This document shows, piece after piece, positions 1 through 19,092 of a DNA stretch of 64,000 bases. Position 1 is the stretch's first letter; every line of letters starts with the position of its first letter. The DNA is from Candidatus Polarisedimenticolia bacterium (GTDB taxonomy: Bacteria; Acidobacteriota; Polarisedimenticolia; Gp22-AA2; AA152), in assembly GCA_036004685.1 (NCBI GenBank), contig DASYRE010000036.1:1-64000 (forward strand), written 5' to 3'. A program made the position numbers and the translations under genes. The notes beneath the pieces are model-generated. The model was not told the DNA's origin. It saw only the letters and a program-made list of their open reading frames with translations, and made no database searches.

Positions 1-408
1 AGTCGTTCGCCACGCCTCGCCCGCTTGGCTCGAAGCGAGATCATCAACACGATCTTGACGGATAGGACTCATCGGGACTCCGAGATCATGCTGGAGAGAA
101 GAGGAACTCTCTCAAATCGCTATTGTTCCGCAGCCTGCTAATCAGCCTCTACGGTACGGTCTTGCGGATCAAGATGGTGTTAAGAATGGACTCGGTCGTA
201 TCAAGAGAGGGTCAAGATTCGGATGCAAAGGCTCGCCCGGAGACCGAATCAGGTGACTGGTGCCACAAGGCTCAGAGTCTCTTGAAGCTGATAGGAATGG
301 CATGATGCCAATTGGCGCCGCAGCAGATGGCGTTCGCCATGCCTTGGGACAACTAGGTCGGGGGGAGAGCGCCTTGCAGAATGAGCGGGGAAACGGTAGA
401 TTATCGTC
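1..408. other. Left-edge region without a supported gene
   Basis: No reading frame here has a recognisable product, a signal peptide or a good ribosome binding site. A 60-codon frame at 123-305 exists, but most of it lies over an 80-bp repeat that is also found at the far end of the kdp operon, so I do not call it a gene. The stretch probably carries the promoter of the small Cys-rich protein that starts at 409. Confidence 0.5.
141..220 (+). repeat. 80-bp direct repeat, left copy
   Basis: Aligned by eye without gaps, this matches 12672-12751 in the same orientation at 70 of 80 positions. The longest identical blocks are CCTCTACGGTACGGTCTT and GGGTCAAGATTC. The flanking bases on both sides do not match. 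The two copies bracket the metal-protein genes and the whole kdp operon, as expected for recombination scars or remnants of one mobile element. No transposase is visible in either copy. Confidence 0.75.
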
Positions 409-786
409 ATGCGACTGAGAAAGGCTTTCATCGCCGTTCTGACCGCCGTTGGTCTACTGATGGCGGCGGGGGTGTCGATGCTCTGTACACCCGCCGGGCA
501 CGGCGCCATGCCGTGCTGCAAGACAGTTCAGCCATGTGCGCAGGGCATGAAGATGGCAGATTGCTGCAGGTTTGTGCCGAATCTGCCCGGAAGCCAGCCC
601 GCCGGCCCGGCGACCCTCTTCACCGCGAAGGATTCGCGAGATCATGGGAAGCCTGCTCTCCTGGCCATCGCCACGTGGACCTCGGCCCAGGTTGAAGAGG
701 TCTTCGAAGACTCCTCGTCTCTTCTTTTCTCACCGCCCGCAGCTTCCGTCCCGATCTTCCTCCGGAACAGCTCTCTAATTCGCTGA
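409..786 (+). CDS. Small secreted Cys-rich protein, possibly metal-binding
   Basis: This 125-aa protein begins with a basic n-region and a hydrophobic stretch (about residues 5-25), which reads as a signal peptide or membrane anchor. Immediately after it is a compact cluster of paired and single cysteines with methionines: MPCCK, then PCAQGMKMADCCR. Such Cys/Met clusters in small exported proteins are often found beside copper- or mercury-handling genes, and the next gene encodes a His/Met-rich exported protein. A metal role is therefore inferred from composition and neighbour, not from a named family. The upstream Shine-Dalgarno is weak. The base composition is more A/T-rich than the right half of the window. 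Confidence 0.6.
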   Translation: MRLRKAFIAVLTAVGLLMAAGVSMLCTPAGHGAMPCCKTVQPCAQGMKMADCCRFVPNLPGSQPAGPATLFTAKDSRDHGKPALLAIATWTSAQVEEVFEDSSSLLFSPPAASVPIFLRNSSLIR

Positions 787-892
787 AACCCTTTCCTCGC
801 CTCTGGCTTCTCCAGCCAGTCTCTTCCATCTTTTTCATTTTCATTGCGTCGATCCGGCCCGCGTGATCAAGCGGGTCGAGAGGAGAGAGAGC

Positions 893-2254
893 GTGTGGAA
901 GACAACTCGGACTATTGTGGCCAACTCGCTGCTGATTCTTTCGTTCTGCGAAGCTACAGCCCAGGAACATCGCCATGGAAAGAAGCCTGAGCCCCCCAAG
1001 AAGCAAGGGGCGCATCAACACACACCAAGCGATGTCCACGATGAACACGCTATGGCGATGACGTCCGGACCCCTGGGCATTCCGGAAACACGGAACGCTT
1101 CCGGAACCGCCTGGCAGCCGGATTCCACGCCGATGCACGGGGTGCACTTTACTCGCGGCTCCTGGTCGATCATGGCCCACGAGAATTTTTTTGCGGGTTA
1201 TGACTATCAAGGCAGCGATCGAGGGGATTCGGAGTGGACGGCTCCAAACTGGGGAATGCTCATGGAGAAGCGGTCCGTCGGGAGAGGCGAACTGATGTTC
1301 CGTCAGATGCTCAGCCTCGATCCGGTGACCATGGGGTCGAACGGCTATCCTCTGCTACTGCAGACGGGCGAAAGCCTGCGAGGGTTACCGCTGCACGACC
1401 GGCAGCATCCGCACGATCTTTTCATGGAAATCGCGGCGGTCTATACCCATCCGCTGTCTGAATCGATGGCTTTCCAGCTCTATCTCGCGCCGGCCGGAGA
1501 GCCCGCTCTCGGACCGGTCGCCTTTCCTCATCGCCTCTCGGCTGCCTCCGACCCGCTCGCCTCGCTCAGCCACCACTGGCAGGACTCCAGCCATATCAGC
1601 TTTGGTGTCCTCACAGCGGGCCTCATGACTCGAAAGCTCAAACTCGAAAGCTCCTGGTTCAACGGGAGGGAACCCGACGAACATCGCTACGATTTCGATC
1701 TCCGTCGGCCCGATTCCTATTCCGGGCGCCTCTGGTTCAATCCCTCCGAAGCCTGGAGCCTACAGGTTTCTTATGGTTACCTCGCCAGCCCCGAAGAGCT
1801 TCAGCCCGACGAGAGCCTGCACCGTTTCACCACATCAGCGGCTTACAACCTGCCCGTGGGTCCCTCGGGAGTTCTGGCGACCACCGCTGTAATGGGCAGG
1901 AACCATCCTTCGAAAGGACCGGAAACATCGTCCTGGCTGCTGGAAGCCAATTACGAAACCAATGGCCGCAGCGTTCTCTTCGGACGCGCTGAATACGTCG
2001 AGAAGACGGGCGAAGACCTCGTGCTTTCGACTGCATTCGAGCCGGAGGTCTTCAAGATCAAGAGTCTGGTTGCCGGTTACGTCTTCCGAGTCACGAACAC
2101 ACCGACCCTCGTTCTGGGGCTTGGTGCACGGGCTTCCGTCAGTTTTATTGGAAGCGACCTCGAACCATTCTACGGAACCAGAAACCCTTCCGGGTACATG
2201 GTATTTCTCCAAATCCATCCCACTGCAATGAAGAGGCATGCAATGAAGATGTGA
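893..2254 (+). CDS. His/Met-rich outer-membrane-like protein, probable metal resistance
   Basis: I start this at GTG 893 because a purine-rich GAGAGGAGAGAGAG lies just upstream and a normal signal peptide (VWKTTRTIVANSLLILSF, cut near ATAQ) follows. A GTG at 863 would place charged residues before the signal. The mature N-terminus has an EHRHGKK / HQHTPSDVHDEHAMAM segment, and the C-terminus ends in PTAMKRHAMKM; both are plausible metal-chelating tails. The body, of about 400 residues, alternates aromatic and polar residues with repeated short strands, as in an outer-membrane beta barrel. The family is often annotated only as hypothetical near copper/silver genes. Its partner is probably the Cys-rich protein just upstream, about 107 bp away. 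Function is inferred. Confidence 0.65.
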   Translation: MWKTTRTIVANSLLILSFCEATAQEHRHGKKPEPPKKQGAHQHTPSDVHDEHAMAMTSGPLGIPETRNASGTAWQPDSTPMHGVHFTRGSWSIMAHENFFAGYDYQGSDRGDSEWTAPNWGMLMEKRSVGRGELMFRQMLSLDPVTMGSNGYPLLLQTGESLRGLPLHDRQHPHDLFMEIAAVYTHPLSESMAFQLYLAPAGEPALGPVAFPHRLSAASDPLASLSHHWQDSSHISFGVLTAGLMTRKLKLESSWFNGREPDEHRYDFDLRRPDSYSGRLWFNPSEAWSLQVSYGYLASPEELQPDESLHRFTTSAAYNLPVGPSGVLATTAVMGRNHPSKGPETSSWLLEANYETNGRSVLFGRAEYVEKTGEDLVLSTAFEPEVFKIKSLVAGYVFRVTNTPTLVLGLGARASVSFIGSDLEPFYGTRNPSGYMVFLQIHPTAMKRHAMKM

Positions 2255-2538
2255 AGGAAGAGCAGATTCTAAGGCAGTCATCTCGAGCCAGCACTCAGAG
2301 ATGTTGAGAGGAGCTTGGAGGTGTGATGCGCAGGAAACCTTCGGTCCCTGAGACGTTCTCCTGGAGCCGGTTCCTCGGTATCATCTTGTCGATTGCAAGG
2401 CTGTTTCTGCTTCGGAGATAGAAAATTTACCCGTCTATCGAAATGGACTGCGGCTCGATGTCAAACCGTTGTTGCCTCAAACGGCCGGTGCTATATTCCA
2501 TGCCATCCCGCACGCTCCGATTTCACAGGAGACGTTCC

Positions 2539-3549
2539 ATGAAAGCCTCCCGTTCCTTCAGTCTCTTCTCCCCTCGATCCTCGCCTTCCATCTTCTTCAT
2601 CGTCTCTCTCGCCTTCGCCCTGATGGGGGCCGTCTCCGAGGCGGCGGCTCAAACCGATGCCTTATCAACCACGATTTACCGTCTAGGGAAGACCGGCACT
2701 TTCCAGCGAGGGTGCTTCCCTCCCTGCTTGTGTCCGGTCATGGAGAGCGGCTCCGAAAGGGGGACCTTCGCCCTGACGTTCAGCGGGTCGGACGGCCTCT
2801 TCAACACGTACCGTGTCAGCGAAGTGAACTGGACGGTTTCGCTTCCCGGCGGTGAGGTGCGCGTCACCGGCTCCGGGACCTATCGGGTCGGAGGCGAGTT
2901 CGCGGTCCAGCACCAGCTCGAGCTGGACCTCAAGGTGGGTGACAATCCGGTGGAGCATTTCGACAGCGGCTTAGTGGCCGGCGGCGGAGGCTTTCCCAGA
3001 ATCGACATCACCATTTCCGTTCACGGGCAAGTTTGCTTTGACACGGTCATCCACGTCGATGCCTCTCCGGTGCCCCAGGCGGAGATTCAGGCCTACCGCG
3101 TCCTGCCGGAAAGCTCATTCCAACGCGGCTGTTTCGGAATGTGCGACTGCCCGGTGACCGAACAGGGCTTGCGGGGCAGCTTCTCCCTGGTGCCCGTCGA
3201 CCAGAACCCGCTCTTCACCGAGTATTCCGTCGTGCAGGTGAAATGGCTGGTTGGTCCGCTTCCCGCCGACGTGACATCCTCGGGTATTCCGGTAAGGGGC
3301 TTCGGCACCTACCGAGTGGGAGGGGAAGTCGCCGTCCAGCACCAGATGGGGCTCGATCTGACGGTCGGCACGGAGGCTTCCGCGTTTTTCGACAGTGGCC
3401 TGGTTTCCGGAGGGAGCAACTTCCCGCGGATCGACATCCAGATCGCCAACGAAGCGAACAGCTGCGTCTCGACGGTCATCGAGCTGCACGCCAAGCCGGC
3501 GAAGCTCTCCCCGGCGTCGCCCTCTTTGACCACCGAGCCTCGCTACTGA
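2539..3549 (+). CDS. Secreted protein with two tandem copies of a Cys-rich domain
   Basis: The start is set at ATG 2539, which has AGGAG seven bases upstream and begins a signal peptide ending near SEAAAQ. An in-frame ATG at 2443 would add 32 unlikely residues. The mature 300 residues consist of two homologous halves of about 135 residues. Each begins FQRGCF-xx-C-x-CPV, passes through GTYRVGGE, AVQHQ and LDL, then FDSGLV, GG, FPRIDI, and closes with a further Cys followed by a TVI strand. The conserved cysteines in each half suggest disulfides in an exported beta-rich domain. I cannot name the family. There is no membrane anchor beyond the signal. It stands alone, convergent with kdpE. Confidence 0.7.
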   Translation: MKASRSFSLFSPRSSPSIFFIVSLAFALMGAVSEAAAQTDALSTTIYRLGKTGTFQRGCFPPCLCPVMESGSERGTFALTFSGSDGLFNTYRVSEVNWTVSLPGGEVRVTGSGTYRVGGEFAVQHQLELDLKVGDNPVEHFDSGLVAGGGGFPRIDITISVHGQVCFDTVIHVDASPVPQAEIQAYRVLPESSFQRGCFGMCDCPVTEQGLRGSFSLVPVDQNPLFTEYSVVQVKWLVGPLPADVTSSGIPVRGFGTYRVGGEVAVQHQMGLDLTVGTEASAFFDSGLVSGGSNFPRIDIQIANEANSCVSTVIELHAKPAKLSPASPSLTTEPRY

Positions 3550-3639
3550 ACCTGGAGAGGCGACTCAGGATCGCTTGTTCGGGCGGTCGGGTATGGCCAT
3601 GATTTCCTCGGCAGCGCATGAGGGAGAGGTGTCGCAGTC

Positions 3640-4341
3640 CTACTTCGGTCCGCGCAGGCGGTAACCGACGCCGGGCTCGGTGAGAAGGAGCTTCGGGCGC
3701 GCCGGGTTGGACTCGATCTTCCGGCGGAGCTGGGCCATGTAGACTCGAAGGTAGTGCGCTTGGCCGGTGTAGGCCGGCCCCCAAACGTCCTTCAAGATCT
3801 GTCGGTGAGTAAGGACCCGGTCGACATTCCGGGCCAGCAGGACCAGAAGGCGATATTCGATGGGCGTCAGATGGAGCTCGGTCTCGTCGAGCAGGACGCG
3901 GCGGCGCGTGACGTCGATTCGTAAGGGACCCGCATCGACAACCGGCTCGGCGGCCGGAACGCCGGTCTGGAGAGCGTGCCGCAAGGCCACCCGGATCCGT
4001 GCCAAGAGCTCCCCGACGCCGAACGGCTTCGTCAGGTAGTCGTCGGCACCCGCGTCCAAGGCCTCGACTTTGTCCGCCTCGCGACCCCGGGCGGAGATGA
4101 CGATGATCGGGGTGCGGGCCCACTCTCGGATCTCACGGGTGAGCTGGATGCCGTCGCCGTCAGGCAATCCCAGGTCGAGCAAGATCAGCTCTGGATGATG
4201 GCTGGTGGTCAGCGCCACGCCTTCCCGGGCAGTTCCAGCCTCCAGGACCCTGAACCCGTTGGAGCCGAGGGAGGCGCGGAGGAATCGCCGCATCTGAGGC
4301 TCATCTTCGACAACCAGGAGAAGAGGCTTCGTCTCGTTCAA
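3640..4341 (-). CDS. kdpE: KdpE response regulator
   Basis: This 233-aa OmpR-family regulator receives phosphate from KdpD and activates transcription of the kdp pump genes when potassium is scarce. The receiver domain covers residues 1-120, with the acidic pocket at VEDE, phospho-acceptor Asp56 in LILLDLGLPDG and the conserved Lys105 in YLTKPF. The winged-helix DNA-binding domain covers about 135-230 and includes the typical LTPIEYRLL and GVGYRLR signatures. Its ATG overlaps the kdpD stop codon by four bases, so the two are translationally coupled. Length and motifs are normal for the family. Confidence 0.96.
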   Translation of the reverse strand: MNETKPLLLVVEDEPQMRRFLRASLGSNGFRVLEAGTAREGVALTTSHHPELILLDLGLPDGDGIQLTREIREWARTPIIVISARGREADKVEALDAGADDYLTKPFGVGELLARIRVALRHALQTGVPAAEPVVDAGPLRIDVTRRRVLLDETELHLTPIEYRLLVLLARNVDRVLTHRQILKDVWGPAYTGQAHYLRVYMAQLRRKIESNPARPKLLLTEPGVGYRLRGPK

Positions 4342-7064
4342 GGCCCACTCGCCTCACCGGGCGGCGCGAGTACGGCAGCCTCCGGCATGGAGGGCGCGGT
4401 GCCCGTTTGGGGTAACGTCATCCGGAACACGGCTCCGCCGCCGGCCCGGTTCTCGGCGGTCAGGGTTCCACCGTGCGCCTGGACGATGCCTCTGGCAATG
4501 GCGAGCCCGAGTCCCGTGCCCCTTGCCCCGGTCTGCGGTCCGCGGTGGAACTTCTCGAAGATCTGAGATTCGCTTCCGGGCGGAAGGCCTGGGCCCCGAT
4601 CCGACACATCCACCTCTACGGCGTCGTCGCTGTTCCGGGCTCGGATCTCGATCGGGCTGCCGGCCGGCGTGTGCTTCACCGCGTTTTCCAATAGGTTCAC
4701 GAACGCCTGCTCGAGGAGGACGGGATCGGCGGATAGAAGCGGGAGGCCGTCGGGCACCTCGGTGGACACCTCCCGGCCCTCGAGCTTCCGATCCAGACGC
4801 GTGAGCGCGGAGCCGACTATCTCCTCGAGAGGCACCCACTCGCGCTTGGGCTCCAGAGTGCCCGACTCGAGCCGGGTCATGTCGAGCAGGTTCCCGACGA
4901 GACGCTCGAGCCGCTCCGCTTCTTCGCAAAGGGTATCCAGCAGCTCGGCGCGCTCGGTCGCGTCGAGTCCCTCCGACTCGTCGCGTAGCGTCGTCGCCGC
5001 GCCGGTGATGGCCCCGAGGGGCGTGCGGAGGTCGTGCGAGACGGCGCTCAAGAGCGAGCTGCGCATCTCTTCGGTCCGGGCCCGAAGCGCCACACTCTTG
5101 GCTTCCTCGGCGAGGCGGGCCCGTTCCAGGGCCAAGGCGATCTGGCGGACCAGAGCCTCGAGGAAGTGTCGCTGCTCCGCTTGTTGGAGCGCCGGCTGAT
5201 CGGAGGCGACAGCGAGAACACCCAAGGCGCTGGCCGAAGCCTGGATCGGAATACAGGTGAGGCGGGCGCCCGGCAGGGTATCCGTGCCGGGACCTGCCGG
5301 GCGACCGTGTTCCAGAACCCATCGGGCCACACCCAGCTCCGGCACGTCCAGGGGAAGCGGGGAGCCTGCCTTCGCCTTCAACTCGAGGTTCCCGGCATTG
5401 CCCGGCAGCAGGATGGCGGCGCCGCCCCCGAAGATCTCGGCCGCATGCCGCGCCGCCGCCTCCGCCACCTGCTTATCGTCCAGGGCCGACCCGAGGTCGC
5501 GGCTGACGTTGTAGAGCACCCGGGTGCGCTCCTCGCGCAAGCGGGCTTCTTGCTCCTGGCGGCGGACGCGCAGCGTCAGCTCGCTGATCACCAAACCTAC
5601 GGCGAACATCATGCCGAACGTCAAGATATGTCGCGTGTCGCCCACGTCGAACGTCAGATAAGGGGGAACGAAGAAGAAATCGAAGAGCCCGACCGAAAGG
5701 GCGGCGGCGAGGACCGATGGGCCGCGACCGAAGCGGATCGCCGCGATCATGATTACCAGGAGGTAGAGCATTACTAGGTCGGGCAGCGCCAGAAACGTCC
5801 GGACTAAGCCCGCGGCTCCGGTCGCCAGAGCGACCAGAACCGTGGCCCAGGCGTAGGCGGGCCAGCCGGCCCGAAAGACCGTCTCGGTCCCCCCGGCGGG
5901 GCGTTCCTCCGCCGTTTTCTCTTCTCCGGCGATCACGTGAACGTCGATCTCGCCGCTTCCCCGCACCACCTCGTCGAGAACCGAGCCGAAGAGGACGTCC
6001 CGAAGCCGGGAGTGCGTGGGTTTCCCGATAAGGATGCGGGTGACGTTGTTTCGACGCGCGTATTCGAGGAGAACTTCGCTCACGCTCCCTCCGGAGAGTC
6101 GGATCACCTCCCCGCCCAGGGTCTCGGCGAGCCGGAGGTGGCTCTCCAAGCGCTCCCGGTCGGCGGAAGCGAGGGGGCCGGCGGCGGTCGTTTCGACATG
6201 GGCCACGGTCCATGGAGCCCGCAGCCCCGCCGCCATGAGGCGGCCCTTGCGGACCAGTCGCGAGGAGGACGCGCTGGGCCCGACGCACACCAGGATCCGT
6301 TCGGCAGCCGGCCAGGTCTGTCGGATGTCGTGCTCCTGGCGGTAGGCCTGGACGTCGGCATCGACGCGCTCAGCCGTGCGTCGCAACGCCAGCTCGCGCA
6401 GCGTCAGCAAATTGCCGCGCTGGAAGAAATGCTCCGCCGCTCGCGCGGCCTGCTCGGGAAGATAGACCTTTCCTTCGTGCAGGCGCTCCAGCAATTCCTC
6501 GGGCGTCAGGTCGATGAGCTCGATGTCGTCGGCCCGATCGATCACCGCGTCGGGGACCGTCTCGCGGACCCGGATGGACGTGATCTGGGCGACGATGTCG
6601 TTGAGGCTCTCGATGTGTTGGACGTTGAGCGTTGTGTGGACTTCGATCCCGGCGTCGAGCAGCTCCAAGGCGTCCTGCCACCGCTTGGCGTGCCGCAGGC
6701 CCTCGGCATTGGTGTGGGCCAGCTCGTCCAGGAGCAGGATGCCGGGCTTTCGTTTCAGGGCCTCATCCAGGTCGAACTCCTCGATCTCGGCGCCCCGATA
6801 GGACACTCTCCGGCGGGGAAGGATTTCCAGCCCCTCCAGGAGGGCAGCCGTCTCGCACCTTCCGTGGGTATCGACATATCCGACGACGACTTCCTCCCCC
6901 GCCGCCTGAAGCTCCTGGGCCGACTCCAGCATCTTGTAGGTTTTGCCCACCCCGGGGGCGAACCCGAAGAAGATCTTGAGGCGGGTGCGCGACTGTCTCG
7001 TCTCCTCTGCTTTCACGCGGCGGAGGAGAGCGTCGGGATCGGGCCGTCCTGCGGGCGAAGTCAT
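4338..7064 (-). CDS. kdpD: KdpD potassium sensor histidine kinase
   Basis: This 908-aa membrane kinase senses potassium limitation or turgor and phosphorylates KdpE. In order it has the N-terminal KdpD domain with a P-loop GVGKT (residues 38-42) and Walker B LLDELAHTN (111-119), a universal-stress-like domain (about 255-375), four closely spaced membrane helices (about 400-490), a GAF-like region (about 515-650), the phospho-acceptor box SAVSHDLRTPLG (His near 675), and an ATPase domain with NLLENAVKHTP, DRGPGLPPG and GTGLGLAIA. All catalytic motifs are intact. It precedes kdpE with a four-base overlap and lies 122 bp after the barrel gene, so it is probably read from the same operon. Confidence 0.96.
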   Translation of the reverse strand: MTSPAGRPDPDALLRRVKAEETRQSRTRLKIFFGFAPGVGKTYKMLESAQELQAAGEEVVVGYVDTHGRCETAALLEGLEILPRRRVSYRGAEIEEFDLDEALKRKPGILLLDELAHTNAEGLRHAKRWQDALELLDAGIEVHTTLNVQHIESLNDIVAQITSIRVRETVPDAVIDRADDIELIDLTPEELLERLHEGKVYLPEQAARAAEHFFQRGNLLTLRELALRRTAERVDADVQAYRQEHDIRQTWPAAERILVCVGPSASSSRLVRKGRLMAAGLRAPWTVAHVETTAAGPLASADRERLESHLRLAETLGGEVIRLSGGSVSEVLLEYARRNNVTRILIGKPTHSRLRDVLFGSVLDEVVRGSGEIDVHVIAGEEKTAEERPAGGTETVFRAGWPAYAWATVLVALATGAAGLVRTFLALPDLVMLYLLVIMIAAIRFGRGPSVLAAALSVGLFDFFFVPPYLTFDVGDTRHILTFGMMFAVGLVISELTLRVRRQEQEARLREERTRVLYNVSRDLGSALDDKQVAEAAARHAAEIFGGGAAILLPGNAGNLELKAKAGSPLPLDVPELGVARWVLEHGRPAGPGTDTLPGARLTCIPIQASASALGVLAVASDQPALQQAEQRHFLEALVRQIALALERARLAEEAKSVALRARTEEMRSSLLSAVSHDLRTPLGAITGAATTLRDESEGLDATERAELLDTLCEEAERLERLVGNLLDMTRLESGTLEPKREWVPLEEIVGSALTRLDRKLEGREVSTEVPDGLPLLSADPVLLEQAFVNLLENAVKHTPAGSPIEIRARNSDDAVEVDVSDRGPGLPPGSESQIFEKFHRGPQTGARGTGLGLAIARGIVQAHGGTLTAENRAGGGAVFRMTLPQTGTAPSMPEAAVLAPPGEASGP

Positions 7065-7186
7065 GGATGGTGACTCATTTCAACACTATCCTAACAGGAT
7101 GAACAAACTCAGCGAGCCAACAATGTCTCCACCAAAGGTACCTCCTGTGTTGACCGGGCAGGCAACAGGATTCGACAAGACACCTA

Positions 7187-7924
7187 CTAAAACTTGATCC
7201 CGATCTCGAGTGTGACAAGATCGTTCTTGCCCTTGTTCGCGAAACCGTATCCCGCATAGGTAATGAACCGGCCGGCGGTCCAGATGAGCCCTGACGTCGC
7301 GTACGCCCCATCGCCGGAGAACCAGTCGGTCGCGAACACGAGCCCCTTCACGCCCGGGATCGGCTGCTCGAAGGTTGCCTGGGCTCCGAAGCGCCGGCGG
7401 TCCGTAAAGACCTCGCGGGTCGCGAAATACGTCCCGGCCGAAACCCGGGTCCCAGCCAGCGGCGCTTCAACGAAGCCGGCCATATAAGCAAAATTTCGCG
7501 CCTGGCCTGCCGTCTCGTTTCGCAATCCAATGCCGGCGTTGTCGCCGAGCAAGAGGCCTAAGGCGCCTCTGGCAGCGCTCTTTCCGAACTCCCGACGAAA
7601 AGGCCGCCACTTGATCGTCGCATCGATGAACGGCTGGCTAGCGTGGTGAAACTCCTGGGGGCCCACGTTAAAGCCCGCTTCCGCGTTGGAGCCTATGCCG
7701 AAGACGCCGCGGACGAAAAAGAAGCCGGGGCTGTCGCTCCCTGACCTCCTGGTCCTGAAATAATGATCGGTCTCGAAATAATGGGCTCCCGGCTCGAGCA
7801 CGTCTGGCGAGGGGATGTTGAAAATCGTCTGCTGGGCCTGGGCCTCGTGTGGGAAGACGGCGGGCAACACGGCCACCGCGAGGGGGATGAGAAGCGAACT
7901 CCAGCGTCGGCTTGTTCTGGCCAA
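7187..7924 (-). CDS. Outer-membrane beta-barrel protein inside the kdp operon
   Basis: This 245-aa exported protein begins with TTG, supported by a GGGAG five bases upstream; no other start is available in frame. A signal peptide (AVLPAVFPHEAQAQQ) is followed by about 220 residues of short alternating strands rich in Gly, Phe and Tyr. It ends in LEIGIKF, a classic C-terminal Phe signature of an outer-membrane barrel. It lies between kdpC and kdpD on the same strand, so it is likely co-expressed under potassium limitation. The obvious inference is an outer-membrane pore or accessory barrel for potassium entry. It could also be a stress-induced barrel with no transport role. It has no close relation to a named porin that I can recognise. 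Confidence 0.75.
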   Translation of the reverse strand: MARTSRRWSSLLIPLAVAVLPAVFPHEAQAQQTIFNIPSPDVLEPGAHYFETDHYFRTRRSGSDSPGFFFVRGVFGIGSNAEAGFNVGPQEFHHASQPFIDATIKWRPFRREFGKSAARGALGLLLGDNAGIGLRNETAGQARNFAYMAGFVEAPLAGTRVSAGTYFATREVFTDRRRFGAQATFEQPIPGVKGLVFATDWFSGDGAYATSGLIWTAGRFITYAGYGFANKGKNDLVTLEIGIKF

Positions 7925-8029
7925 GCAGGCTCCCGGGACGCGTGATGCCGATCGGATCGGGGTGTACCTTCGGTTCGCTTTTCCGCTCCTTGTCGGCTGA
8001 GGCGTCGGCCACCATTTCCTGCCGAGGCG

Positions 8030-8641
8030 CTATCGTCCCTTCAGCCGGCGGTCCTTGTCCACCGCTCTTCCAAAGAGGCTGTCCAGGGCCAGATTGAGGC
8101 GAAGGACGTTGACCCGCTGCTCGCCCAAGAGGCCCAGCGTCCGGTCCTCCACCAATTCGTGGACCAGCGCGCGTAGCCGGTCCTCCGGAAGGCGGCGTGC
8201 GCGGGCCACTCGGCCGACCTGACAGAGGGCAGCCGCCGGGGAGATGTGCGAGTCCAGGCCGCTCGCCGACGCGGTGACCAGATCGACCGGAATGAGACCC
8301 TTGAGCTCTGGATCGGCGGCCCGCAGTACCTGGATCCGGCCGCGGACGGCATCTCTCCACGCCGGATTGGTCGGACCCAGGTTCGAACCGGCGGAGGAAG
8401 CGGCGTCATAAGGAACGGGAGCCGTGGCGGAAGGCCGGCTCCAGAAGTAGCGCGCCTCCGAGAAAGGCTGACCAATCAGATCCGATCCAAGGATCTTATC
8501 GCCGTCTCTCAGGAGGCTGCCGTTCGCCTGGCGCGGGAAAAGGAGCTGCGCCAGTCCGGTGAATGCAACCGGATACGCCACTCCGGTGAGGAGGGTCAGG
8601 AGGAAGAATACCGAGATGGCGGGCCGGACGATTTCCTTCAC
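8030..8641 (-). CDS. kdpC: KdpC, potassium-transporting ATPase subunit C
   Basis: This 203-aa single-pass inner-membrane subunit stabilises the KdpFABC complex and increases its affinity for nucleotide. The N-terminal helix (about residues 8-30, ISVFFLLTLLTGVAYPV) is followed by the family signatures GSLL, GSDLIGQPF, YFWSRPSAT, SAGSNLGPTNP, and near the end DLVTASASGLDSHISP, VARAR and VNVLRLNLALD. The gene starts three bases after the kdpB stop. The length is slightly above the E. coli protein. No key segment is missing. Confidence 0.97.
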   Translation of the reverse strand: MKEIVRPAISVFFLLTLLTGVAYPVAFTGLAQLLFPRQANGSLLRDGDKILGSDLIGQPFSEARYFWSRPSATAPVPYDAASSAGSNLGPTNPAWRDAVRGRIQVLRAADPELKGLIPVDLVTASASGLDSHISPAAALCQVGRVARARRLPEDRLRALVHELVEDRTLGLLGEQRVNVLRLNLALDSLFGRAVDKDRRLKGR

Positions 8642-8643
8642 AG

Positions 8644-10722
8644 CTAGGCCGCTCGCAGCAGAGTGAGCATCAAATCGATCGCTTTGATACAGGGAAAGGG
8701 GATCAGTACGCCGCCCAATCCATAGACCAGGATGTTCCGGCGCAGCAGCTTCGGAGCCGAAGCGGGCCGGTACCGCACCCCCCGAAGCGCCAGCGGGATG
8801 AGCGCCACGATGACAAGAGCATTGAAGATGACTGCCGAGAGGACCGCGCTGCGCGGCGAGTGAAGGCCCATCACGTTGAGGACTCCGAGCGCCGGATAGA
8901 TAGAGGCGAACGCGGCCGGAATGATCGCGAAGTACTTCGAGACGTCGTTGGCGATGCTGAAAGTCGTAAGCGCCCCGCGGGTGATTAGCATCTGCTTGCC
9001 GATTTCGACGATCCGAAGGAGCTTGGTGGGATTGGAGTCGAGATCGACCAAATTGCCGGCCTCCCGCGCCGCCTGCGTTCCGGTGTTCATGGCCACTCCG
9101 ACGTCGGCCTGGGCCAGGGCGGGCGCGTCGTTCGTGCCGTCACCGGTCATCGCCACCAGATGGCCTTTCCTCTGGTAGTCGCGAATGAGGGCCAGCTTGG
9201 CTTCCGGGGTCGCTTCGGCCAGGAAGTCATCCACCCCGGCCTCGGCCGCGATCGCGGCGGCCGTGAGCGGCGAATCGCCGGTGATCATCACTGTCCGGAT
9301 TCCTAGTCGGCGCATCTCCGCGAACCGCTCCCGGATTCCCCCCTTCACAATGTCCTTGAGGTCCACGACTCCGAGGATGCGCGGTCCTTCGGCGACCAGC
9401 AGCGGAGTTTCGCCGCGCTTGGCCACATCCTCGACGGCCCGGACCACCTCGGGCGGAAAGGCGCCCCCCTGATCCCGCACGAACTTCTCGACGGCGTCGG
9501 GAGCACCTTTGCGAATGCGCCGGCCTTCCAGGTCGACGCCGCTCATCCGCGTCTGGGCGGTGAAGGGAATGAACACCGCCCCGAGAGGCATGACTTCCCG
9601 CGCGCGGATTCCAAACTTCAGCTTGGCGAGGACGACGATGCTCCGGCCTTCGGGAGTCTCATCGGCCAGGGAAGCGAGCTGGGCGGCGTCGGCCAGATCC
9701 GACTCCGATACCGCCGGCGCCGGAATCAGGGCCGTTGCCTGCCGGTTGCCGAGGGTGATCGTGCCGGTCTTGTCGAGCAAGAGGATGTCGACGTCGCCTG
9801 CCGCCTCGACGGCCCGGCCGGACGTGGCGATCACGTTCGCGGCCACCATGCGGTTGATTCCGGCGATCCCGATGGCGGAGAGCAGTCCGCCAATAGTCGT
9901 CGGAATGAGGCAGACCAGGAGCGAGACGAGCACCGTGAGACTGACGGGCGCTCCCCGGCCCGCTGAGGTGATTGAATAAACCGAAAAGGGCAGCAGGGTG
10001 GCGGTGGCAAGAAGGAACACCAGTGTCAATCCGGCCAGCAGGACGTCCAGGGCGATCTCGTTCGGCGTTTTCTGGCGGCGCGCCCCCTCCACCATGGCGA
10101 TGATCCGGTCGAAAAACGTCTCGCCCGGATTCGCCGTTATCCTGACGACGATCCAGTCCGACAGGACCCGGGTGCCGCCAGTGACCGCGCTCCGGTCCCC
10201 ACCGCTTTCGCGAATCACCGGCGCGCTCTCTCCCGTGATGGCGCTTTCGTCCACCGATGCGATTCCCTGAATCACTTCTCCGTCGCCCGGAATCAGATCT
10301 CCCGCCTCCACCAAGACGACGTCTCCGGCGCGCAGCCCTGAGGCTGGCACCGCATCGCGGGCGGCCTCCCGGCGGGGCTCGGCGAGACGCTTCGCCACGA
10401 TGTCCCGCCGCGTCCGGCGGAGCGACTCGGCCTGCGCCTTCCCCTTCCCTTCGGCCAGCGCTTCCGCGAAGTTGGCGAACAGCACCGTGAACCAAAGCCA
10501 AAAGGCGATCGCCACGATGAACCCGGCCGGCTCCTCTCCGCGGCCGGTGAGCCAGGCATGCATAAAAAGGAGCGTGGTGAAGAGGCTGCCGACCTCAACC
10601 ACGAACATCACGGGGTTTCGCAGGGATCGGCGCGGATCGAGCTTCAGGAAGGCATCAACGATTGCCTGGCGGACCAGACCCGTCTCCAAAAGCGGTCGGG
10701 GCGGCGCGACGGTCGTGGACAT
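8644..10722 (-). CDS. kdpB: KdpB, potassium-transporting P-type ATPase catalytic subunit
   Basis: This 692-aa P-type ATPase hydrolyses ATP to drive high-affinity potassium uptake through KdpA. The visible catalytic elements are the actuator loop AITGESAPV, the phosphorylation motif LLDKTGT (Asp near residue 315), the nucleotide-domain [11 protein letters not shown], and the hinge [12 protein letters not shown]. The Ser in TGES matches the position that is reported to be inhibited by phosphorylation in the E. coli protein. Membrane helices flank these domains in the usual order. It sits between kdpA and kdpC with 15- and 2-base gaps, consistent with stoichiometric translation from one mRNA. 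Confidence 0.98.
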
Positions 10723-10737
10723 TCTCGGGATCCCTTC

Positions 10738-12483
10738 TCAGCGGGCGAAGAACTGGAAGTGCTCGGCCAGAGGCCCGAGCGCCAGGGCTGGGATGAACGT
10801 GAGTGCCCCGACGAGCAGGACCGTGCCCGCGAGGAGCAGCACGAACAGGGGCGTGTGTGTCGGAAGGGTGCCGGAGGAGACCGGCACCGCCTTCTTCCGG
10901 GCCAGGGAGTCGGCGATGGCCAGCACCGGCACAATGACCCAATACCGGCCGATGAGCATGCAGACGCCGATGGCGGTCGCGTAGAAGAAGGAGCCGGCGT
11001 TCAATCCCCCAAACGCCGACCCATTGTTGTTGGCGCCCGAAGAAAAGGCGTACAGGATCTCGCCGAAACCGTGCGGCCCAGGGTTCGCGACCGCGCTACG
11101 ACCTGCCGGCATCAAACAGGCGATGGCCGTGCCGATGAGCACTGCCGCGGCGGGAATGAGGATTCCCAGCGCCGCCATTTTCATCTCGAACGCCTCCAGC
11201 TTGTGGCCGAGATATTCGGGCGTCCGGCCGACCATCAGGCCTGCGATGAACACCGTCACAATCACGAAGAGGATCATTCCGTACAGACCGGATCCCACGC
11301 CGCCAAACACCACTTCGCCGAGCTGCATGAGGACGATCGGCACGAGACCGCCCAGCGGTGTGAAGCTGTCGTGCATGGAGTTCACCGAGCCGTTGGAGGC
11401 AGCCGTGGTCGTCGTCGCCCATAAGGCGGAGCCCACGATTCCGAATCGGACTTCTTTTCCCTCCATGTTCCCGCCTGCCTGGAAGTCGTTCGCGTCCTGA
11501 TCCACGCCAAGTTCACTTAGCCGAGGGTTGCCGGCTTGCTCGGCTGCCAGACACCCCACAAGCATCGGGACAAGGAGAACCATCATGGCGGCGAAGAGGG
11601 CTGTCCCCTTGCGCCGGTCCCTGACCATCGCCCCGAAAGTGAAGCACAAGGCCGCGGGGAGCAGCAGAATGGCCAGCGTCTCGACGAAACCGGTGAGGGG
11701 GTTCGGATTCTCGAACGGGTGAGCCGAGTTGGCGTTGAAGAACCCGCCGCCATTCGTTCCCAATTGCTTGATCGCGACCTGGGACGCGACGGGGCCTAGG
11801 GCCAGGGTCTGGGTGTCGAGCGTCGACCCGTCACCGGTCTGCAGGGATTGGAGAAGAGGCACGGTGCTGCGCGCAGCGAACGTCTGCACGACTCCCTGCG
11901 AAACCAGGAAGATAGCTAGGACCGTGGAGAACGGACCCAGGACATAAACCACGCTTCGGACGAGGTCGACCCAGAAATTCCCGACGTCGGGCGAGGCGCG
12001 CCGCTCAAACCCGCGGATGAGCGCGGCCAGGACGGCCATACCCGTCGCAGCCGACAGGAAGTTCTGCACCGTGAGCCCGGCCATCTGAGTCAGGTGGCTC
12101 AGAGTCGTCTCCCCCGCATAGGCCTGCCAGTTCGTGTTGGACACGAAGCTGACGGCCGTGTTGAAAGCGATTTCGGGTGGGACGGAGCCGAGCCCACCTG
12201 GATTCAGGGGTAGATGTCCCTGGAGTCGCTGAAGGGCATAGAGCACCACCATACCCAGCAGGTTGAACAACAGGGCCGAGGCCGCATACACCTTCCAGGT
12301 CATCGACTCGTCCGGATCCACCCCCGAGAGGCGGTAGAAGAGCCTTTCGAACGGGCCGAGGAGATAGTGCGCGACTCGCGATCGTCCCAGGTACACTCTC
12401 GCCATGTACTCTCCGAGAGGCACCGCCAGCGCCGTCAGCGTGACGAAATAGAGGGCGAGCTGGACGAAGGCCCCGAAGCTCAT
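10738..12483 (-). CDS. kdpA: KdpA, potassium channel-like subunit
   Basis: This 581-aa polytopic protein carries the potassium selectivity filter of the Kdp pump. The first ATG in an ORF starting at 12555 is not used; I choose ATG 12483 because MSFGAFVQLALYF is the standard N-terminus and the codon overlaps the kdpF stop. Filter segments are visible as VSFVSNTNWQAY, LGTNGGGFFNANSAHP and an FSSGANNNGSAF segment. The family-typical EYMARVYLG follows the first helix. About ten hydrophobic helices are evident. Length is normal. Confidence 0.97.
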   Translation of the reverse strand: MSFGAFVQLALYFVTLTALAVPLGEYMARVYLGRSRVAHYLLGPFERLFYRLSGVDPDESMTWKVYAASALLFNLLGMVVLYALQRLQGHLPLNPGGLGSVPPEIAFNTAVSFVSNTNWQAYAGETTLSHLTQMAGLTVQNFLSAATGMAVLAALIRGFERRASPDVGNFWVDLVRSVVYVLGPFSTVLAIFLVSQGVVQTFAARSTVPLLQSLQTGDGSTLDTQTLALGPVASQVAIKQLGTNGGGFFNANSAHPFENPNPLTGFVETLAILLLPAALCFTFGAMVRDRRKGTALFAAMMVLLVPMLVGCLAAEQAGNPRLSELGVDQDANDFQAGGNMEGKEVRFGIVGSALWATTTTAASNGSVNSMHDSFTPLGGLVPIVLMQLGEVVFGGVGSGLYGMILFVIVTVFIAGLMVGRTPEYLGHKLEAFEMKMAALGILIPAAAVLIGTAIACLMPAGRSAVANPGPHGFGEILYAFSSGANNNGSAFGGLNAGSFFYATAIGVCMLIGRYWVIVPVLAIADSLARKKAVPVSSGTLPTHTPLFVLLLAGTVLLVGALTFIPALALGPLAEHFQFFAR

Positions 12484-12569
12484 AGCTTTTCGGGCCAGAG
12501 AAGCGCGACGATGAGATAGACGATGAGGAGCATCGCCAAGAAGGCACCGATCCAAAGAAATGGGGTCAC
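12480..12569 (-). CDS. kdpF: KdpF, 29-residue membrane subunit of the Kdp pump
   Basis: This short gene begins with GTG at 12569 and encodes 29 residues: a single hydrophobic helix (FLAMLLIVYLIVALLWP) followed by the charged end EKL. The LLWPEK end is characteristic of KdpF, which stabilises the KdpABC complex lipidically and structurally. Its TGA overlaps the kdpA ATG (ctATGA), which shows translational coupling. GAGAGG lies just upstream of the GTG. The gene is easily missed because of its size. Confidence 0.9.
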   Translation of the reverse strand: MTPFLWIGAFLAMLLIVYLIVALLWPEKL

Positions 12570-12579
12570 GGAGAACCTC

Positions 12580-12660
12580 TCAGATCTTCTCGCAAAGCCG
12601 CACGAAGCCCCAGGTCAGCAAGAAGAAGACACCGATAATGCCCAGGAAGAGAGTGTCCAT
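12580..12660 (-). CDS. 26-aa membrane leader peptide ahead of kdpF
   Basis: ATG 12660, preceded by a strong GGGGGAT, opens a 26-codon frame made of one hydrophobic helix (LFLGIIGVFFLLTWGFV) followed by RLCEKI. It ends ten bases before the kdpF start. Very short ORFs with a helix and an xRLCxxx end are found upstream of kdpF in other bacteria. That positional match, the ribosome binding site and the spacing make it likely to be translated. Whether it is an accessory subunit or a leader peptide cannot be decided here. The neighbouring kdpF has the same organisation of one helix with a charged tail. Confidence 0.65.
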   Translation of the reverse strand: MDTLFLGIIGVFFLLTWGFVRLCEKI

Positions 12661-13080
12661 AACATCCCCCAATCGACCTCTACGGTACGGTCTTCCGGAT
12701 CAAGATGGTGTAAAGAATCGACTCGGCTGCACCAAGATAGGGTCAAGATTCACCCCTGCCACGGTGGGGGACGACGATCCATCTTGGTTGAATCCTCGGC
12801 ATTCCACGTGATAGAGAAGGTTGATGATTTGAGGATCTCTTGTAGATCCTGCTCAGGGAAACGAACCTCCCCTGAAGCGCGCGTGCGTGGCGCTCTCAGC
12901 CGTCTCTCGGAGGGCATGTTCCCTCAACGTTGGTGACTTGGTTTGTCTTGATCCGCGCCGGCGTCGGCTGCGCGGTTGTTCGATCCCATTGATGATGCGT
13001 GTGTGGTCGGGACGTCCGGCAGTGGTTGCGAGGACTGAAGCGTGGGGCGAGGCAAGAGGGTTCGCGGTGCGGGTCCCGCC
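12661..13080. other. Divergent intergenic region upstream of the kdp operon
   Basis: No gene is supported. The stretch holds the right copy of the 80-bp repeat, the likely kdp promoter on the minus strand, and, farther right, the upstream region of the membrane gene at 13081. A long minus-strand frame crossing 12853-13617 is antisense to that gene and has no product-like features. I see no clear sigma-70 hexamers and no KdpE operator that I can assign confidently. Confidence 0.5.
12672..12751 (+). repeat. 80-bp direct repeat, right copy
   Basis: This is the partner of 141-220 (70 of 80 identical, same orientation). It lies about 10 bases upstream of the start codon of the first kdp reading frame, so it overlaps the expected promoter/leader of the operon. 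The sequence beyond position 12751 diverges from the left copy immediately. Confidence 0.75.
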
Positions 13081-14082
13081 ATGACCGCGCTCGAGCATCC
13101 CCGGGCGCGCTTCTACCGGCTGCTCTTCGCTCTGGCGGCGGCCTACAACGCCGCGTTCGCCGCTTGGGCGATCCTGTGGCCCGGGTCCTTCTTCAAGCTC
13201 TGTGCGATGGACCCGCCCCGCTATCCCGCCGTCTGGCAGTGCCTGGGAATGGTGGTGGGCGTGTGCGGCCTCGGCTACGCCTATGCCGCCTGGCGGCTCG
13301 ATCGCGCCTTGCCATTCATCACTCTCGGCCTCCTCGGCAAGACGCTGGGCCCGATCGGCTGGGTCGCGACGGTGCGCGCCGGGGAGTGGCCGATCCGGAC
13401 GTTCACGCTGATTCTCTTCAACGACCTCGTCTGGTGGCTGCCGTTCGGGCTCTTCCTGCTCGAAGGGACGCGCGCCGGGGCGCGACTGCGCGCCTCGGCG
13501 CCGTACGCCTGCGCGACCCTGAACCTCATGGCGGCATTGGCGATTCCGCTGGCGCTTTCCCCCGGTATGGAGACGGTGCGCGACCGCGCGGCGCGGGTCG
13601 ATTACATCGGCGCGCATGCGGCACTCTGGCGCGCCGGCTGGAGTCTCTGGATCGTCGCGGCCCTGAGCCTCCTCGGGTTCTACGGCTGGTGGGCCGCCCG
13701 GGCGCGCCCCCGCTCTCTCGGAACCGCGGCGCTGGTCCTGGCCATCGCCGGGATCGCCGGCGATCTCCTGGCGGAGTCGCTGTACATCGGCTGGCTGCCG
13801 GCCGACTACGATCGGATCGCGCCGGCGGCGCGTCTTCTCACCGGCGCCTGGGGCAACACGCTGTACACGCTTTCCGGGATCCTCCTCACGCTTGGCAGCC
13901 CGTGGCTGCGCGGCCCGGCGCGCGCCTGCGCCTGGCTGATCTGGGCGGTCGGCCTGGCTCTCGGCGCCTTCTCCTTGGCGGGGAACGTCACCGGGATGTC
14001 GGTGTCGACGGCGCTGCTCTTCATCCTCTTCTGTCCCTGGGTCGCCTGGATCGGATGCCTGGCTCGAAGGAAACCGGCGTGA
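13081..14082 (+). CDS. Polytopic membrane protein of unknown function
   Basis: I use ATG 13081 (MTALEHPRARFYRLLFAL); an in-frame ATG at 13042 would add 13 basic residues and no helix. The 333-aa product has about eight or nine hydrophobic helices. The first 125 residues resemble a widespread small integral-membrane domain, with WPGSFFKL followed by a run of aromatic residues and FNDLVWWLPFG. The second part (about 150-330) is a separate helical block with RADYIGAHAALWRAGW and ESLYIGWLPADYD. I do not recognise an enzyme motif. The stop codon overlaps the next gene's GTG (GTGA), so the two are probably one operon and the protein may serve the downstream oxidoreductase-like product. Confidence 0.75.
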   Translation: MTALEHPRARFYRLLFALAAAYNAAFAAWAILWPGSFFKLCAMDPPRYPAVWQCLGMVVGVCGLGYAYAAWRLDRALPFITLGLLGKTLGPIGWVATVRAGEWPIRTFTLILFNDLVWWLPFGLFLLEGTRAGARLRASAPYACATLNLMAALAIPLALSPGMETVRDRAARVDYIGAHAALWRAGWSLWIVAALSLLGFYGWWAARARPRSLGTAALVLAIAGIAGDLLAESLYIGWLPADYDRIAPAARLLTGAWGNTLYTLSGILLTLGSPWLRGPARACAWLIWAVGLALGAFSLAGNVTGMSVSTALLFILFCPWVAWIGCLARRKPA

Positions 14083-15143
14083 GCCGGAGAATCGTGGTCC
14101 TCGGCGGCACCGGACTCTTCGGCGGGGCGGCGGTCGAGCTGCTGCGCGCGCAAGGAGCGGCGCCGCTGATCGCCGCCCGGGGAGCCGCCCGCGACGGCGG
14201 CGGCGCCCTCGACCTGCGCCTCGACGCCGAAGATCCGGACGCCTTGCGCTCCGCCCTCCGTCCCGGCGACGTCGTGCTCGACGCCGCGGGGCCGTTCCAG
14301 GAGCGCAGCGCCGCCCTCGTTGAAGCGGCGCTGGAAATCGACTTCGACGTCGTCGATCTCTCCGAAAACCTCGGCCACTTCCTGAAGATCGACGCCTTGC
14401 GGCCGCGGATCGAGGCGCAGGGCATTCGCGTGCTCACCAGCTGCTCGTCCGTCACGACCTTGCTCGCGGTCCTGGTGCGCGCGAGTGGTGCGCAGGCTCC
14501 GGCGCGCGTCAGCGTCTATCTCGCGCCCGCCTCGAAGGTCACGGCCACGGCTGGCACCGGGGGCGCGCTCCGCCATTCCCTGGGGCGGCCGATCCGCATC
14601 CTGCGGGGAGGCAGGCTCGTGCCGGCCCGGGGCTGGCGCGAGTCGCGATCATTCTTGATGCCGCCGCCGATCGGTTCGGCGCGGGGCTATCTCCTGGAGA
14701 GTGCCCACGCCGCGACGCTGCCGCGCCTTTTCCCGACGCTTCGCGATGCCGACTTCTGGGTGGACAGTCGGGTGCCGGGGCTGAACTCCGTCTTGCGCCT
14801 CATGGCTCTCGCGCCGGCGCTGGCCGCGCGCGTGGGTCGAGCTTTGCGCCGGTCGACCCTGGTGGCGCGCACGCTCGGCTCGGTGGCCGGGGGAATGCTG
14901 GCGGAGATCGAAGAGACCTCAGGCGTCGTCACTCAGGCACGCGTCTTCGCGCCCCGGCGCAGCTACCTTGCCGCGGTGGCGCCCGCCGTCCTGGCCGTCC
15001 ATGCCATCGCCTCCGGCCGCTTTCCTGCGCGCGGCCTCGTTCCCCATGACCGCCACGTCGGACCGGACGAGCTTTTCGGCTACCTCCGGCAGCTGGGGAT
15101 TGAGTGCGCCTTCTCAGAACCGCAGCTCGCGGGATATCCATGA
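14079..15143 (+). CDS. Saccharopine-dehydrogenase-like NAD(P)-binding protein
   Basis: This 354-aa protein opens with a Rossmann beta-alpha-beta: VVLGGTGLFGGAAVELL, matching the N-terminus of saccharopine dehydrogenase-type reductases. The following DVVLDAAGPFQ and DVVDLSENLGHF segments are also typical of that superfamily. The substrate is unknown; such proteins range from true reductases to lipid- or membrane-associated homologues. I start at GTG 14079, which overlaps the upstream stop in a GTGA junction; ATG 14055 is in frame and would add eight residues. The C-terminal third has hydrophobic stretches that could associate with membrane. Its coupling to a membrane protein suggests a shared membrane-linked reaction. 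Confidence 0.8.
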   Translation: MSRRIVVLGGTGLFGGAAVELLRAQGAAPLIAARGAARDGGGALDLRLDAEDPDALRSALRPGDVVLDAAGPFQERSAALVEAALEIDFDVVDLSENLGHFLKIDALRPRIEAQGIRVLTSCSSVTTLLAVLVRASGAQAPARVSVYLAPASKVTATAGTGGALRHSLGRPIRILRGGRLVPARGWRESRSFLMPPPIGSARGYLLESAHAATLPRLFPTLRDADFWVDSRVPGLNSVLRLMALAPALAARVGRALRRSTLVARTLGSVAGGMLAEIEETSGVVTQARVFAPRRSYLAAVAPAVLAVHAIASGRFPARGLVPHDRHVGPDELFGYLRQLGIECAFSEPQLAGYP

Positions 15144-15409
15144 CGGTGAGACGGCAGAAGCTTCGACGGCTCGCGCGGCCGGGGTCAGGAGCTGGGGCAA
15201 GAAGTGGTGGCTTTTCCGATGGCGGCACGTGCTCCGACTGTTCGGAATCGGCACGCCGGCTCCCAAGAGCGGACAGTAGCCGGAAGAGTCCGGCCGGGAC
15301 GATGGCCTAACTGCCTTCAATCCGCTCAAGTTATTCGCCGGCATGTTGGCACCCGCTTTGCCCAAGTGAGGCTGACGGTCCTTCCCCTATTCGGCAGGAG
15401 ACGAGTCTG

Positions 15410-17833: not shown

Positions 17834-18183
17834 CCCAAGCGCGGAACGGCCCCGGCATGAATCTCGCGCGAGCGCCGGAATGAAAGGGCGACCGGATGGT
17901 CGCCCTTTTTCGGGTGAGGTTGGCCGGTCTTCGAAACGATCAGCGCTTTACGGAACCGCTTTCCCACGCCTCAAGGCAGCTTCCCCACCGAGCTGATCTG
18001 TCGCACCAGCTCTTATCCTCACTGCTTGAATCCGCCTCCTCGTGAGGCGAGAATGCCAATGGCTGAGGGAGCCCGTTTTGGGAGGCGAGTCTTCGTGACG
18101 ACTCGGGACGGTTGGCGCGTTGAGGTTGGAAAACGATCCATGGTCGATCGGCGACGCAGTCCGCTTCGTGAAGCGAGGAGCTG
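17834..18183. other. Intergenic region with a terminator
   Basis: The only clear element is the GC-rich hairpin with a T-run at 17883-17910. The remaining sequence up to the metallopeptidase start has no supported gene; a minus-strand frame at 17940-18569 is antisense to that gene. AGGAG just before 18184 is the metallopeptidase ribosome binding site. Confidence 0.5.
17883..17910 (+). terminator. Rho-independent terminator after the ADOP permease
   Basis: GGGCGACC and GGTCGCCC pair perfectly around a four-base loop GGAT, extended by three A-T pairs at the base, and are followed by TTTTT. It lies 50 bases after the permease stop. On the opposite strand the A-run would also give a U-tract, so it could work both ways. 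Confidence 0.9.
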
Positions 18184-19041: not shown

Positions 19042-19092
19042 GGCCGCATGGCTCGCAGGACTGCCGTCGGACGTTCTGCCGTACCCTTCTAC

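Follow-up and report, generated by a model that had tools for sequence, protein, structure and literature searches.

The outer membrane is usually assumed to be freely permeable to potassium through general porins. The known 12-stranded porins KdgM and NanC carry acidic sugars, and the titles of their structure entries agree with this. Another channel, of the COG4313 type, has been linked to the uptake of hydrophobic molecules; its role as a physiological ion channel was judged unlikely, and in its structure the N-terminus occludes the lumen (PMC4493636). The porin FORMB_11920 of Formosa B lies in an ammonium-transporter operon and is co-induced with that operon, and its authors proposed peptide uptake (PMC6246565). 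Searches of the open-access full-text literature found no description of a porin within a kdp operon.

Here we analyzed a stretch of 64,000 nucleotides from Candidatus Polarisedimenticolia bacterium (contig DASYRE010000036.1), hereafter the window, in which a gene for a predicted outer-membrane barrel lies between kdpC and kdpD. What is added is that barrels of three families, two of them known and one not found in the libraries searched, stand repeatedly at kdp, and that two of these three families also stand at ammonium-transporter genes. We propose, with a probability of about 0.7, that the barrel in the window is a 12-stranded outer-membrane channel belonging to the kdp functional unit, letting potassium cross to the pump.

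The kdp operon of the window and its barrel gene

The earlier note had described a barrel with a signal-peptide pattern and a terminal Phe between kdpC and kdpD on the same strand, which was confirmed by the open reading frame, the Pfam and NCBIfam matches of the neighbors and the AlphaFold2 model. The features of the region are as follows.

3640-4341, minus strand: kdpE-like response regulator (PF00072 and PF00486; best NCBIfam model KdpE, below its cut-off)
4338-7064, minus strand: kdpD (PF02702, DUF4118, HisKA, HATPase_c)
7187-7924, minus strand: barrel gene, 245 aa, TTG start, stop codon included in the coordinates; homologues known
7190-7192, minus strand: codon of the terminal Phe, outer-membrane beta-signal pattern ...LEIGIKF (from the sequence)
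7193-7783, minus strand: 12 predicted transmembrane strands, residues 48-244 (AlphaFold2 model; the model of relative L004 agrees)
7787-7834, minus strand: conserved N-terminal segment QQTIFNIPSPDVLEPG, residues 31-46, ahead of strand 1 (family conservation)
7835-7924, minus strand: putative signal peptide, residues 1-30 (HEAQA/QQTIF), judged by eye from the sequence
8030-8641, minus strand: kdpC (PF02669, E 5e-71)
8644-10722, minus strand: kdpB (TIGR01497, above cut-off)
10738-12483, minus strand: kdpA (PF03814, E 3e-242), likely ATG start, the ORF reaching 12555
12480-12569, minus strand: probable kdpF, 29 aa, GTG start, ...LIVALLWPEKL, resembling kdpF-like ORFs of other loci

KdpA, KdpC and KdpD each matched their own Pfam family, and KdpA, KdpB and KdpC exceeded the NCBIfam cut-offs; KdpD and the regulator were best matched by the KdpD and KdpE models, yet scored under those cut-offs. 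The barrel gene is separated from kdpC by 105 nt and from kdpD by 122 nt, and a consensus scan of positions 6900-8200 found no terminator-like site and a single promoter-like site, on the opposite strand. The shared strand, the short gaps and the absence of a terminator-like site suggest that the barrel is co-expressed with kdp. The base composition of the barrel gene (GC 0.62, GC3 0.77) is close to that of the kdp genes (GC 0.64-0.68, GC3 0.77-0.83), and the window copy is the sole member of its family in its own genome. The encoded protein begins with MARTSRRWSSLLIPLAVAVLPAVFPHEAQA/QQTIF, where a signal-peptide pattern was recognized by eye, and Q31, the first residue past this pattern, is identical in 33 of 33 aligned family members.

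A gap of about 200 nt before kdpA recurs among the loci, because kdpF-like ORFs fill it; such ORFs were found at 76 of 97 kdpA starts examined with a loose text pattern, which the window's own kdpF escaped. When Rfam was applied to window positions 1-20000 and 18 loci, no known structured RNA was found between the barrel and kdpA, the matches in these sequences being tRNAs plus an nhaA-I element in locus L090 (RF03057, 54 bits; 9092-9143, plus strand), located there between kdpC and a Na/H-exchanger gene (PF00999). Directly upstream of the probable kdpF, the window holds a 26-aa hydrophobic ORF, MDTLFLGIIGVFFLLTWGFVRLCEKI (12580-12660, minus strand), which has no Pfam match and is possibly another small membrane subunit or a leader. 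About 1.4 kb past kdpE, on the opposite strand, a barrel-like gene (863-2254, plus strand) encodes a 463-aa protein with a His/Met-rich N-terminus and a sub-threshold match to BBP2 (18.1 bits, cut-off 26.2), and a further gene (2443-3549, plus strand) encodes a 368-aa secreted-looking protein that has two halves similar by eye and no Pfam match.

A barrel family that recurs beside kdp

The window protein matched no Pfam or NCBIfam family at E<=1, the 15 family members gave only three weak, unrelated matches in Pfam, and a PDB sequence search with the window protein and with the 15-row profile returned nothing significant. Two pattern matches were obtained in viral contigs, with no relative among them. 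Searching with the 15-row profile yielded 41 match rows, spread over 28 of the 396 Acidobacteriota genomes, and more relatives occur in Vampirovibrio and Larkinella. Among the 33 aligned members, a count that omits L112, L168, L153 and L166, the strongly conserved positions include Q31, N36, D41, G76, E82, Y147, G164, D200 and N230. Since homologues with conserved residues exist in other genomes, the barrel gene is more than a product of chance.

KdpC is present in 137 of the 396 genomes, 17 of which also carry the family. In 14 of these 17 a copy lies beside kdp; for 11 of the 14, among them the window, the sequence itself was read, and in G264, G306 and G370 the adjacency was taken from coordinates only, on one contig and strand. 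The remaining three, G210, G270 (kdp contig cut) and G299, are without a copy beside kdp. In total, 15 of the 41 match rows are at kdp, and the family is also found in 11 genomes without KdpC. The earlier note would have considered the gene a chance insertion if it were absent from the other kdp operons of the lineage; the same family stands beside kdp in 14 of 17 genomes, and the gene is not a chance insertion.

At 11 loci besides the window, one of which (L112) carries a fragment, the family gene is placed upstream of kdpF or kdpA. Because these other 11 loci place it there, the kdpC-kdpD slot is unusual for the window's family, and it is unique among the loci read. Two truncated copies were observed, one upstream of kdpA (L112, genome G382) and the other between kdpE-like and kdpD-like genes (L168, genome G144), and G382 has a full-length copy at its second kdp locus, L111.

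A tree was constructed from 35 members (11 kdp-linked, 4 linked to ammonium transporters, 1 linked to KimA and 19 others), with the fragments L112 and L168 omitted. The kdp-linked members need five label changes on this tree, against a mean of 9.5 after shuffling, and the ammonium-linked members fall inside a supported set of 15 (100/99) without any kdp-linked row. The branch of the window is long, and its grouping with the kdp-linked L095 and L099 is weakly supported (82/63). The tree, which is rooted at its midpoint, would fit an old association with kdp and a later spread to ammonium. With so weak a grouping and so long a branch, it is no more than possible that the window copy reached its slot from an ancestral position upstream of kdpFA.

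Other barrel families in the kdp slots

The kdp survey took in 79 loci in 78 genomes plus the window, with at least one locus for every other genus with KdpC, and covered all 70 KdpC-bearing genera and 79 of the 137 KdpC-positive genomes (of 396). By counts from HMM-based annotation, 34 of the 80 Acidobacteriota loci carry in a flanking slot a barrel of one of three families, namely the window's family, BBP2 (PF07642) and Gcw_chp/TorF (PF09694); these loci span 18 of the 32 family codes. Twenty-nine of the 34 barrels are located upstream of kdpFA (18 BBP2 and 11 of the window's family), and five come after kdpC (three BBP2, one Gcw_chp and the window's own); in 65 loci kdpA comes first and the upstream slot can be seen. 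In the other 46 loci, some of which are cut by contig ends, no slot showed a member of the three profiled families. PF07642 was matched by 21 of 21 Acidobacteriota BBP2 slot genes, that of L049 among them, and by 11 of 11 Bacteroidota ones. In L040 and L049 the annotation left kdpA unlabelled, and tblastn places it as expected. The gaps are not all tight, reaching 1215 nt upstream (L040, with its unlabelled kdpA) and 952 nt downstream (L096).

In locus L070, a Gcw_chp/TorF barrel (PF09694) stands between kdpC and kdpD. A Bacteroidota draw of 118 genomes around Larkinella contained 30 with KdpC, and BBP2 lies between kdpC and kdpD in 11 of these 30 loci and elsewhere in the cluster in two more. 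The kdpC-barrel-kdpD order is that of the window, L070, L078 and 11 Bacteroidota loci, and the recurrence in related kdp operons that the earlier note had named as a check is found, with other families also holding the flanking slots.

In both sets taken together, barrels account for 45 of 75 same-strand non-kdp ORFs in the two flanking slots versus 5 of the 417 remaining non-kdp ORFs of these stretches. Slot proteins contributed to the barrel profiles used in this comparison, so that barrels of other kinds elsewhere could be missed. Because of this excess, too, the barrel gene is more than chance, and barrels are linked to kdp. Each of the 31 barrel-bearing genomes checked gave just 1-3 match rows for BBP2, so the probability of its adjoining kdp by chance is small; the window's genome has no BBP2 match at E<=1e-5. 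Non-barrel genes identified by Pfam in the slots encode an amino-acid permease (L041), a Na/H antiporter (L071), a methyltransferase (L094) and, after kdpC, a Na/H exchanger (L090).

The sister genus G001 has kdp and none of the three profiled barrel families there, and none of the three was found in five Pseudomonadota plasmid kdp loci, read among 60 matches listed of 462 records with a KdpC match. Because of these cases, we conclude that the barrel-kdp linkage depends on lineage.

Ammonium transporters and KimA as further partners

Apart from kdp, we read 21 copies of the window's family in 20 further stretches. Four of them occur with ammonium transporters, three directly behind one (L150, L152 and L154), and L154 has two copies, one directly behind the ammonium-transporter gene and the second about 7 kb off. 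In L150, a P-II gene lies upstream, and a glutamine synthetase gene is present downstream on the other strand. In L151, the family barrel is directly behind the gene for a homologue of the potassium importer KimA (6s3k, E 2.7e-154), which has kdpD-like and kdpE-like genes upstream. KimA homologues (44-70% identity) were also seen in the kdp loci L101, L094 and L050. The truncated copy of L168 is also one of the 21, and the other 15 adjoin no kdp, ammonium-transporter or KimA gene; one of these 15, in L167, stands by a SulP-type anion transporter, DabA and a DUF2490 protein.

BBP2 adjoins an ammonium-transporter or P-II gene in 5 of 18 further BBP2 stretches (L210, L211, L215, L217 and L220), and in L219 it is one gene away from such a gene. 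The window's genome has no ammonium transporter (PF00909) at E<=1e-5, a search in which 14 of 14 control genomes were positive.

Predicted structure of the barrel

The earlier note had suggested modelling the structure with a pore in view, and the outcome is a predicted 12-stranded barrel. The AlphaFold2 model of the window protein has 12 strands at modest confidence (pLDDT 68, pTM 0.66; the five models range from 45 to 68), and a separate model of the relative L004 likewise has 12 strands (pLDDT 74, pTM 0.70). Both models resemble 12-stranded channels. The best matches of the window model are tied, with Z 19.2 for FapF (rmsd 3.2, 201 aligned), 19.0 for KdgM (2.0, 165) and 18.7 for COG4313 (2.8, 200), as are those of L004, with Z 20.6 for COG4313 (3.0, 208), 20.5 for FapF (2.7, 202) and 20.3 for KdgM (1.8, 169); OMPLA and LpxR also match, with lower scores.

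The match between L004 and COG4313 starts at residue 1. Residues 31-46 of the window protein, which are of low confidence in the AlphaFold2 model, are a possible plug or constriction, and the QQTIFNxPSxDV segment in this low-confidence region could occlude the lumen as the N-terminus of COG4313 does.

On the assumption of strict alternation along the DSSP strands, the conserved acidic residues E51, D53, E82, E186 and D200 face inward, together with the basic R72, K105 and R160. They are compatible with cation passage, which is no proof of it: the whole inward face of the window protein would hold 8 acidic versus 11 basic residues, a count that does not make a clear cation filter in the model.

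Proposed role and alternative explanations

We propose the following for the function of the barrel. When potassium is scarce, the cell would make the KdpFABC pump together with a pore from the same gene cluster. This pore, perhaps lined or gated by the conserved QQTIFNxPSxDV segment, would admit potassium through the outer membrane and so keep the periplasm from limiting the high-affinity pump. The signal-peptide pattern and the models point to a protein that is secreted and inserted as a barrel, and the fold suggests pore activity. A preference for small monovalent cations is suggested by the linkage to K+ and NH4+ transporters and by the conserved inward acidic residues. The linkage is the main argument for a small-cation pore, K+ and NH4+ being nearly equal in ion size. 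On the comparison of loci, the idea of the earlier note that outer-membrane permeability is co-regulated with potassium uptake appears supported.

The alternative that survives best is a porin of the osmotic response, which would adjust general permeability under the osmotic upshift that also induces kdp and have no special role for potassium. Osmotic upshift and low potassium both elicit a response from Kdp systems, the predicted fold resembles general small channels, and BBP2 and Gcw_chp are broad barrel families. However, the window's family also accompanies ammonium transporters and a KimA homologue, partners for which osmotic stress offers no obvious common denominator, and we regard this explanation as unlikely.

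The FapF scores, which equal those of the porins (Z 19.2 for the window model and 20.5 for L004), and the lower matches to OMPLA and LpxR would also suit a barrel that is not a solute pore at all, such as an outer-membrane enzyme or a FapF-like secretion barrel. The catalytic pattern of OMPLA is a Ser-His pair, but no pair of this kind is present among the family-wide conserved columns, and the recurrent neighbors that were recognized are ion transporters, which leaves this alternative very improbable.

The position directly before kdpD in the window, and the same gene order in L070, L078 and the 11 Bacteroidota loci, could also indicate that the barrel is an accessory of KdpD signalling, as part of the sensor. 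We give this little credence: 29 of the 34 Acidobacteriota barrels are upstream of kdpFA, a common contact with KdpD is hard to envisage for three families whose sequences show no detectable kinship, and KdpD senses from the inner membrane and the cytoplasm. Neutral clustering, in which the gene landed in the operon without a function there, draws on a slot that is unique for the family in the loci read and is found in no close relative, but is scarcely credible when the family adjoins kdp in 14 of 17 genomes and the linkage extends to three barrel families in two phyla.

Returning to the proposed potassium pore, we tentatively extend it, as a doubtful but possible generalization, to the other barrels. 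At least three barrel families without detectable sequence kinship may each have been recruited separately, as pores that prefer cations, to the operons of potassium transporters (Kdp, KimA), and two of the families to those of ammonium transporters as well. The passage of small monovalent cations through the outer membrane would then be a regulated step of high-affinity uptake in Acidobacteriota and Bacteroidota, and the N-terminal segment of the window's family would plug or gate its pore. Should a porin within the kdp operon, and in several cases one within an ammonium-transporter operon, be common to many Gram-negative lineages, the entry of K+ and NH4+ through the outer membrane can limit growth and would be under gene control. 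BBP2 and Gcw_chp are barrel families to which Pfam assigns no substrate, and this reading would give parts of both a function.

Comparison with known systems

Gcw_chp/TorF (PF09694, TIGR02001) is similar to the window protein in size (269 aa) and takes the kdpC-kdpD position in L070, but the window protein has no match to it in Pfam or NCBIfam at E<=1, nor do the 15 members in Pfam. BBP2 (PF07642, putative beta-barrel porin-2, OmpL-like) resembles the window's family in occurring both in kdp slots and beside ammonium transporters; its proteins are larger, about 340-690 aa in these loci, and neither the window protein nor the 15 members match PF07642 at E<=1.

The KdgM and NanC porins (4pr7, 2wjq) share the 12-stranded fold with the window model (Z 19.0 and 17.6), but at 7-8% identity and with no match of the window protein or the 15 members to the KdgM-type sequence family in Pfam at E<=1. 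The COG4313 channel Pput2725 (4rl8) shares the 12 strands and an N-terminal segment ahead of strand 1, which is of low confidence in both the window and the L004 model, but again at low identity (11-12%) and with no match to its sequence family in Pfam at E<=1. Compared by operon context, FORMB_11920 is alike in being a porin joined to an uptake operon for a small cation, and the present results suggest an alternative reading of this Formosa porin. As in a dedicated uptake porin, the window's family is recurrently linked to the same inner-membrane transporter.
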